From Duganella sp. 1224 (GTDB lineage Bacteria > Pseudomonadota > Gammaproteobacteria > Burkholderiales > Burkholderiaceae_D): DNA of 64,000 nt. How positions within the stretch are numbered: position 1 is the first letter of the stretch; each line of letters opens with the position of its first letter. Location of the stretch: contig NZ_JACBYS010000001.1 in the NCBI RefSeq assembly GCF_013408245.1, positions 744,001 to 808,000 on the forward strand, given 5' to 3'. The translations under genes were made by a program, and so were the position numbers. The notes under the pieces are model-generated. The model worked only from the letters and a program-made list of their open reading frames with translations. It did not search any database and had not been told where the DNA came from. Shown piece by piece: positions 61,986 to 63,994 of the stretch.

Positions 61986-62492
61986 TTAATCTGTCAACGA
62001 TTGTACCGTGAATGCGGCGAGCACCGCACCGAGTAAATGCGCCTGCCACGCCACGGCCACGCCGGGCGGCAGGCCCGACCAGCTGGCGACATAGCCCAGC
62101 GCTTCTGCAGCGATTTTGACCGACAGCGCGACACCCAGCAGCACCAGCGCCGCCCGCGCACGGCGGCCGGCGCGTGGCCACAAGGTGCCAGCCGCCAGCA
62201 CCACCAGCATCACCGCCATGCCGGACGCGCCACGGTAATAGAGGAGATCCGGCGCCAACAGCAGCAGCCCGGCGGAGATCAGCGGTGCGCTGAGCGCCAC
62301 GATCAGGCAAAGGCGTCGCCAGCCCAGCGCCGGCAGGGCGATGGCGCCCGCCGCCAGCGCCGTCGCAAAGTCCATCAGCGCGTGGCGCGCCGAATAGTGG
62401 ACCAGATGGCAGGTCCACAAGCGCCAGATCTCGCCGGACAGGATGGCGTGGCGGTCAAACTGCCACAGTTCAGGCACGGCGGCGGACGGCAT
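61986..62492 (-). CDS. rrtA: Rhombosortase (rhomboid-family protein-sorting protease)
   Basis: A rhomboid-like membrane protease of 168 residues from the ATG at 62492. Features are IWRLWTCHLVHYSARHAL (the WR..T.HLVH region), catalytic Ser90 in RGASGM and catalytic His152 in WQAHLLGA, with about five predicted helices. This is the rhombosortase pattern; these enzymes process proteins with a GlyGly-CTERM tail. The frame is open to 62621, but an early start would overlap the lipoprotein gene by over 150 bases. At 62492 the overlap is 23 bases. This start lacks the expected first helix, so the true N-terminus is uncertain. Confidence 0.8.
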   Translation of the reverse strand: MPSAAVPELWQFDRHAILSGEIWRLWTCHLVHYSARHALMDFATALAAGAIALPALGWRRLCLIVALSAPLISAGLLLLAPDLLYYRGASGMAVMLVVLAAGTLWPRAGRRARAALVLLGVALSVKIAAEALGYVASWSGLPPGVAVAWQAHLLGAVLAAFTVQSLTD

Positions 62493-63312
62493 AGGCCACG
62501 CCGGCCAGCAGCGCCGCCAGCACAAGGCTGATCCAGCCCATGCCGCCGCCGCCATGCCCGCCGCCGTGGTAACCGGCCTTGTTCTCGACCTGGTAATTGG
62601 CGTCGTTCTTGATCCGCTCACGGAAATTATCCAATTCCGTTTGCAATTGCGGGATCAGTTGATCGACAGCGCGCTCGTAACCCTCGCCGGCGGCCTGGCG
62701 CTGTTTCTCGGTCAGGCCGGCCAGACTGGCGCCTCCCTTGATGCGGCTGGTGCCCGGCGCGCGGAACAGCAGCTTGTGGCTCTGGACGTCGAACACGGCG
62801 GCATCCACCATCGTCTGCACGTCATACTGGTCACCATGGATCACGTAGGCGCCGATGATGGTCCAGTACAGCACCGACAGCGCGTTGCTGTCGTTGAACT
62901 GTACCTGGTCGTAGGAGAGCAGGGTGACCACTTCCACATCGAACATGCGCGCCACCTGTTCCAGATTGGTGAAGCCGCCCTTGGCCTGCAGGTACTGGCT
63001 TGGGATGATGTCGATCTTGCCGATGTACTGGTGTTTGGAGAACGCGTCGCGCACGCGCTCCAGCAGTTTGATTTTTGCGGCTTCCGGCAATCCGTTATTC
63101 CAGTTCGATCCGGGCACGAAGGCAATCCCCACCTTGACCGGAGGCCGCAGCCTGACCACGCTCGGCGCCAGCGACGGCGATTCCTTCGCATTCGGATACA
63201 GATAGTCGACCAGGCTACCCGTCTGCTTGGCGCCATTCGGGTTATGCCAGACAGCGCAGCCGCTCATCACGACAGCGACAGCGACAATCAACAGGGCTTT
63301 AAGAAATTGCAT
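62470..63312 (-). CDS. Rhombotarget-type lipoprotein with GlyGly-CTERM-like tail
   Basis: A 280-residue protein with two sorting signals. The N-terminus is a lipoprotein signal with lipobox VMSGC (Cys19). The C-terminus has a Gly/His-rich stretch (HGGGHGGGGMG), a membrane helix (WISLVLAALLAGVAYAV) and a final RRRA, the layout of GlyGly-CTERM signals. The middle is a CsgG/TolB-N-like alpha/beta domain (VKVGIAFVPGSNW, VEVVTLLSYDQVQF). The ATG at 63312 is preceded by GGAGAA. An upstream in-frame ATG at 63357 lies within the CPBP gene and is less likely. The adjacent rhombosortase is its probable processing enzyme. Confidence 0.82.
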   Translation of the reverse strand: MQFLKALLIVAVAVVMSGCAVWHNPNGAKQTGSLVDYLYPNAKESPSLAPSVVRLRPPVKVGIAFVPGSNWNNGLPEAAKIKLLERVRDAFSKHQYIGKIDIIPSQYLQAKGGFTNLEQVARMFDVEVVTLLSYDQVQFNDSNALSVLYWTIIGAYVIHGDQYDVQTMVDAAVFDVQSHKLLFRAPGTSRIKGGASLAGLTEKQRQAAGEGYERAVDQLIPQLQTELDNFRERIKNDANYQVENKAGYHGGGHGGGGMGWISLVLAALLAGVAYAVRRRA

Positions 63313-63994
63313 GTGGTTCTCCACTAGGTTGCTGATGCAGGATGTGGTAGCTGCCAATCGCGCCGACCAGCGGCAGGCCTATATGGATGGCGATTAGCCA
63401 CCATAGGCTGCCGGTCAGCACATAGCCCGCGCCGAACAGCAGCGCGGAGACAATGCTGCCGCCGAGCTGGATCGGAGTGCGATAACCATGTGCCAGGCCA
63501 TACGCCAGGCCGGTGATGGCGACCGCGCCCCAAGCGCCGGCATAGGGCGTCAGCACCAGCGTGAGAAAGCCGCGGTATAGCAGCTCCCAGCCGGCGCCGA
63601 CGAAGAGTGTCGTCAGCAGGAAGAGCCGGAACTCGCGCGGTGTGCGTGGCATCTTGTCGTTGGACTCCGCCAGGGCACGCAGCTTCGCGGCCTTGTCCGG
63701 CGTGGTCTTCTTCGTGGCGGCGGCGTACATGGCGGACAGGCCGATGGCGGGAATCAGCAGGCACCATAGCGCGGCGCCGGCGCGGGGCATATCCAGTCCC
63801 AGATCATGCGCGGAGTAGCCGTTGGCCCAACAGGCCGCCGCCAGCGCCATCAGCGCCAGGCTGATGGTGCGCATGGTTCTGACGTAGCCTTGCGCGCGCG
63901 GGCGCGAAGCCACATCGCGTTGGCGTACGCTGCGCCACAGCTGGACTGCGGGGTAAATCAGGATGAGGTAGAACGCCAGCGCCAGGTCTATCAT
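63299..63994 (-). CDS. CPBP-family intramembrane metalloprotease
   Basis: A 231-residue membrane protein of the CPBP/Rce1-like (Abi) family. Family motifs are partly changed: GWELLYRGFL keeps one Glu and the Arg of the EExxxR motif, LAHGYRTP carries the second-motif His, and IAIHIGLPL the third. The N-terminal half has several helices and a charged loop. Its stop overlaps the lipoprotein ATG by 14 bases, so it is the first visible gene of this minus-strand operon. Upstream control lies beyond the window edge (6 bases remain). Confidence 0.78.
   Translation of the reverse strand: MIDLALAFYLILIYPAVQLWRSVRQRDVASRPRAQGYVRTMRTISLALMALAAACWANGYSAHDLGLDMPRAGAALWCLLIPAIGLSAMYAAATKKTTPDKAAKLRALAESNDKMPRTPREFRLFLLTTLFVGAGWELLYRGFLTLVLTPYAGAWGAVAITGLAYGLAHGYRTPIQLGGSIVSALLFGAGYVLTGSLWWLIAIHIGLPLVGAIGSYHILHQQPSGEPHAIS

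Follow-up and report, generated by a model that had tools for sequence, protein, structure and literature searches.

A rhombosortase and rhombotarget lipoprotein pair in Duganella sp. 1224, with an apparently five-helix enzyme and tailless relatives

The RssP-VesB system of Vibrio cholerae (TIGR03902/TIGR03501) combines a rhomboid-family serine protease with a target that ends in a Gly-rich stretch, a transmembrane (TM) helix and basic residues. In genomes with a single target the two genes tend to be adjacent; 16 of 21 such genomes have both at most one gene apart (Haft and Varghese 2011, PMC3237569). Two full-length proteins with a variant GlyGly-CTERM at their end are named in PMC5300114, and the rhombotarget lipoprotein, TIGR04179, is one of them. 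A CPBP-family gene beside a tailed target is known from the sorting proteases MrtJ (JDVT-CTERM) and MrtX (myxosortase). Here we describe a locus of Duganella sp. 1224 (NCBI RefSeq assembly GCF_013408245.1) in a stretch of 64,000 nucleotides, referred to as the window (contig NZ_JACBYS010000001.1, positions 744,001 to 808,000, forward strand); coordinates below are window positions. Three overlapping minus strand genes, read from the sequence at the window end, encode a CPBP-like membrane protein, a lipoprotein and a rhomboid. The overlaps are 14 nt between the CPBP and lipoprotein genes and 8 nt between the lipoprotein and rhomboid genes. Judging from sequence comparison, it is quite likely that the last two form a dedicated pair in which a rhombosortase cuts the C-terminal anchor of the lipoprotein, that the enzyme of a Duganella/Rugamonas clade has a five-helix form with the Ser/His core kept, and that the CPBP gene came to lie beside them later.

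The rhombotarget lipoprotein gene (62470..63312, minus strand) encodes 280 aa: a signal peptide with the lipobox MSGC, a periplasmic domain, a Gly-rich stretch, a TM helix and RRRA. The start is taken as the ATG at 63312, while the open reading frame (ORF) list has a TTG at 63357. Like other members the protein matches TIGR04179 over its full length (276.1 bits, E 2.5e-82, cut-off 150). The lipobox and the C-terminal tail GGGHGGGGMGWISLVLAALLAGVAYAVRRRA were read directly in the sequence, and the lipobox Cys19 is invariant across 28 aligned lipoproteins. The rhombosortase gene (61986..62477, minus strand, 163 aa from GTG, five TM helices predicted) encodes a match to TIGR03902 at 98.2 bits (E 4.5e-28; 98.5 bits in a second search; cut-off 84), and a target for it, the TIGR04179 protein, adjoins it. 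The catalytic Ser85 (codon 62223-62225, minus strand) and His147 (codon 62037-62039, minus strand) are invariant in 36 aligned rhombosortases, 34 of which match TIGR03902 at 1e-23. With both proteins above curated cut-offs, the three-gene observation is confirmed as real and not due to chance, and the rhombosortase beside a rhombotarget lipoprotein stands as a preliminary description of the window had named it.

The last 30 codons of the lipoprotein gene (62473..62562, minus strand) encode the GlyGly-CTERM-like tail, the presumed rhombosortase target, which within TIGR04179 counts as a variant form of the GlyGly-CTERM. The profile checks proposed beforehand gave matches to the rhombosortase and rhombotarget lipoprotein models and a miss for the GlyGly-CTERM model TIGR03501 (cut-off 15.5 bits), which does not match the tail at E up to 10. 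A profile built from 18 tails finds it at E 6.6e-11.

Profile searches of the whole genome gave one TIGR04179 match and one TIGR03902 match. We did not find a second terminal GlyGly-CTERM tail in this genome with three profiles (TIGR03501, TIGR03867 and the tail profile). TIGR03501 gave three matches, one above cut-off (L004, 17.8 bits; L-numbers denote individual loci and G-numbers individual genomes of the comparison sets, L108 being the window). L004 has a TM helix, but 44 residues follow it, so it is not a terminal tail and was rejected as a second substrate; the other two matches are followed by 396 and 77 residues and are internal. No TIGR03867 match is above cut-off in this genome, and the three weak ones are all internal. 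For the tail profile, the reading covers matches to E 0.03. At that value stands the next match after the window tail, a signal-peptide-like stretch, and genus genomes that lack the pair give matches at the same level; two weaker matches have E 0.78 and 0.88. At the search sensitivity used, the pair is thus supported as one-to-one in this genome. The dedicated single-substrate system that had been suggested from the window held in this genome-wide count. An adjacent single-target pair is an already known kind.

TIGR04179 proteins were found in 19 of 369 class genomes drawn (18 above cut-off) and in 17 of 294 family genomes drawn. Among the 18, the rhombosortase adjoins the lipoprotein in seven and lies elsewhere in the genome in ten; in the remaining one, G159, the sole candidate enzyme is a 52-bit rhomboid. 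The 26 genus members of the family draw hold either both genes (8) or neither (18), counting rhombosortases at E up to 1e-10. We also examined the best 80 of 460 named relatives, 66 of which have a same-strand rhombosortase-like gene downstream of the lipoprotein. The other 14 lack an adjacent enzyme: nine lipoproteins are tailless, one locus (L180) is cut by the contig end and four lipoproteins are tailed. Five of the nine tailless loci are of Undibacterium type, three belong to one Zoogloea clade and the last is L195, where the contig stops after a further 57 nt. A whole-genome profile search found no rhombosortase above cut-off in these nine genomes. For the four tailed loci the enzyme lies elsewhere in the genome in two, is present as fragments in one, and was found nowhere in one (L172).

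Tail and enzyme are thus mostly present or absent together. Among the 92 lipoproteins scored, both occur in 81, neither in ten, the tail alone in one and the enzyme alone in none. In the named loci, an enzyme was scored as present if adjacent and matching our own profile at E 1e-4, or if matched in the genome above the TIGR03902 cut-off. Hits in G032 (22 bits) and L186 (47 bits) were not counted, and G159 was scored as enzyme-less despite its 52-bit rhomboid. The count leaves out L044 (tail undetermined) and L200 (enzyme fragments). On a lipoprotein tree of 94 rows, built without L163, L180, L186 and L193, the tail changes three times and the enzyme changes the same way in all three independent pairs; such counts do not separate gain from loss. 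TIGR04179 gives three tailless proteins (L169, L202 and L195) 250 to 269 bits, well above cut-off, and calling them by the equivalog name "rhombotarget lipoprotein" misleads.

Some loci of this survey deserve a separate mention. In L186 (Candidatus Protistobacter heckmanni) and L193, a metagenome-assembled genome (MAG) of Zoogloea, the lipoprotein frame is apparently broken and a rhombosortase-like gene then follows. L200, a MAG with a family lipoprotein and rhombosortase fragments, is labelled Klebsiella pneumoniae, apparently in error. In the class draw, G309 has two rhombosortases above cut-off, one adjoining the lipoprotein and the second on a different contig, possibly a split between a dedicated and a general enzyme.

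The rhombosortase start is taken as the GTG at 62477, which sits within the last codons of the lipoprotein gene. An alternative ATG lies at 62492, and the ORF-list start at 62621 is deep inside the lipoprotein gene. Measured from the lipoprotein stop to a conserved DR codon, the junction (62457..62477, minus strand) is 13 nt long in 14 of 14 members of the Duganella/Rugamonas clade, window included, and at least 73 nt in the other pairs measured (L154, L157, L160, L162, L167 and L178 were unanchored and L181 mis-anchored; in L134 the anchor fell seven codons too late, and the spacing was taken by eye). A second anchor, WR, gave 43 nt in ten clade members (three mis-anchored) and 103 to 400 nt in the rightly anchored others; 40 non-clade loci were anchored, five of them wrongly (L167, L183, L187, L188 and L194), and 13 were unanchored. 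Compared with the commonest spacing, the clade junction is shorter by 72 nt, that is 24 codons in frame. A junction of 13 nt leaves no room for TM1, the first helix of the rhomboid core. A structure model built on the short start shows five helices, aligned to GlpG from residue 119 on, so by junction and model the window enzyme departs from the six-helix core. In the short form residue 4 already aligns to position 3 of the TIGR03902 model, where the match starts, and this profile is thus no test of TM1. Based on these observations, the rhombosortase of the 14-genome clade appears to lack TM1 and to have five helices. The shortened junction itself is seen as sequence; from it we infer a TM1 deletion at the gene junction. 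A literature search at the level of titles and abstracts found no natural TM1-less bacterial rhomboid, which is not proof of absence from print.

Several points weigh against a dedicated pair with a five-helix enzyme. The tie between the genes is one-way: 38 of 294 family genomes have a rhombosortase above cut-off and only 12 of these have the lipoprotein (a thirteenth pair, in G642, has an adjoining enzyme at 78.9 bits, below cut-off). L172, a metagenome assembly of uncertain completeness, is tailed, and no rhombosortase was found in it. Three independent tail changes give a sign test p of only 0.25, and TIGR03501, which misses the window's own tail, has limited reach for variant tails. The structure model was built from the chosen start and is no test of that start. 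The ratio of nonsynonymous to synonymous substitution rates (dN/dS) of the five-helix form slightly exceeds that of its six-helix sister. Read through the lipoprotein's frame, the window stretch upstream of DR has a hydropathy of 1.27, against 1.29 in two weak TM1 controls.

This last value could mean that TM1 is hidden, either because translation starts upstream within the lipoprotein gene or because frameshifting lends the lipoprotein's helix to the enzyme as TM1. In the window an in-frame ATG does lie 33 codons before DR. However, going back from DR the frame closes after 16 codons in L131 and after 13 in L159, and in L133, L135, L137 and L139 the interval from 50 to 7 codons before DR contains no start codon. 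Upstream hydropathy is -0.39 to 0.73 in ten members and 1.1 and 1.27 in two, with two stretches too short to score. The lipoprotein helix would moreover run from periplasm to cytoplasm, opposite to TM1. A frameshift fusion of lipoprotein and rhombosortase was set aside on topology and frame, and a hidden TM1 is very unlikely.

It could also be argued that the TM1-less rhombosortase is decaying or inactive and that the tail is kept as a permanent second anchor. The raised dN/dS fits this, as does an Asp at a place where many rhomboids have Asn. Rhomboids are, in addition, described with at least six helices (PMC3237569). Yet the frame is open, Ser and His are conserved in 14 of 14 members and dN/dS is below 1 in all 91 clade pairs. 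The tail is likewise kept in 14 of 14, and elsewhere tail and enzyme are absent together. We regard an inactive enzyme as unlikely. A more specific proposal, itself rather unlikely, is that the five-helix enzyme is active with its N-terminus outside and serves only its one co-translated substrate, whose C-terminal helix would fill the space or contact of TM1, so that loss of the helix fixed the enzyme on one target.

If the lipoprotein and the rhombosortase form a dedicated pair, the precursor would be anchored in the inner membrane twice, by its N-terminal lipid and its C-terminal TM helix. The neighbouring rhombosortase would cut the second anchor at the boundary between Gly-rich stretch and TM helix, which may let the N-acylated lipoprotein leave for the outer membrane. 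Residue +2 of the lipoprotein is Ala. In E. coli, Ala at +2 directs a lipoprotein to the outer membrane. V. cholerae VesB is reported to have a glycerophosphoethanolamine-containing moiety attached at its cut C-terminus (PMC6219818), and the new C-terminus here may similarly gain a second lipid. For the earlier proposal of a lipoprotein released at its C-terminus, cutting is thus retained as the probable step and "released" becomes uncertain because of the attachment reported for VesB. In the clade, the in-frame shortening of the junction by 24 codons would have removed TM1 and made the genes overlap, with the Ser/His core kept, and the CPBP gene would have joined later. The Duganella pair differs from RssP-VesB in having an N-terminal lipoprotein as target and an enzyme with apparently five helices, not six.

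The AlphaFold2 model of the lipoprotein has a pLDDT of 79.6. Its domain weakly resembles PelC, CsgG and FlgT-type domains; alignments to PelC, CsgG, LptE, FlgT and HpaA folds have 7 to 15% identity and a root mean square deviation of 4.0 to 5.4. Because ribosome-factor and other domains also score 8.0 to 8.2, the fold match shows no function and is a weak lead.

The third gene (63299..63994, minus strand, 231 aa) encodes a CPBP/Rce1-like membrane protein that matches PF02517 (47.1 bits, E 3e-12, gathering cut-off 22.4). The preliminary description took it as a second maturation or immunity-like step, and a three-gene cassette with a second protease or immunity partner would agree with the shared strand, the overlap with the lipoprotein gene and the presence of the gene in four Duganella loci. 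These four (the window, D. margarita, D. levis and D. radicis) are, however, the only ones among the 88 tree loci with at least 700 nt upstream (six of 94 have less), the gene being undetected in 84 with a profile made from three close copies, which a far-diverged CPBP gene would escape. The redoxin gene that lies upstream of CPBP in the window directly precedes the lipoprotein gene in six Duganella/Rugamonas relatives (L131, L132, L133, L136, L137 and L139), which lack CPBP at the same chromosomal place. Within the reach of this profile, CPBP was rejected as a conserved component. Read by eye, EExxxR is WELLYR in all four copies (WELLYRG in the window), with Trp for the first Glu, and the Asn of HxxxN is Pro (HIGLP in the window), so the motifs of an active CPBP glutamic protease are incomplete. 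According to the myxosortase paper (PMC11980579), the first motif Glu holds the water together with a His, and the oxyanion hole includes the Asn. The protein scores 15.2 bits with the MrtJ model NF033192 (cut-off 75), and it further differs from MrtJ and MrtX in its replaced motif residues and in not being conserved with the target. The CPBP gene is most likely a passenger and its product perhaps not a protease; a role in the pair is very unlikely, and the earlier proposal is not supported.

A serine hydrolase gene lies 0.4 to 4.3 kb downstream in 13 named clade loci. It occurs in 19 of 31 genus genomes drawn, with the pair within about 1.5 kb in only three of 20 loci (L108, L109 and L121), and was set aside as a neighbour. 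In L126 (genus genome G457) the CMD, redoxin and serine hydrolase genes directly adjoin without the pair, resembling an empty site. L143, L144 and L148 form, beside L128-L139, a second lineage of the pair in one GTDB genus, with a six-helix enzyme; no redoxin or serine hydrolase gene is seen close to them, pointing to more than one gain.

Pairs of this sort are already known. What varies here is that the enzyme apparently has five helices and that tail and enzyme are repeatedly missing together. Should the five-helix enzyme prove active, it would be a natural minimal rhomboid, and TM1 of the six-helix core would be dispensable for a single-target enzyme. The joint absence is comparative evidence, in a lipoprotein, that the tail serves the enzyme. 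TIGR04179 members of Undibacterium and one Zoogloea clade, which score above cut-off without tail or detected rhombosortase above cut-off, show that a family name given by score alone is no proof of being a rhombosortase target, and these tailless relatives are ready-made controls on what a lipoprotein of this kind gains from C-terminal processing.
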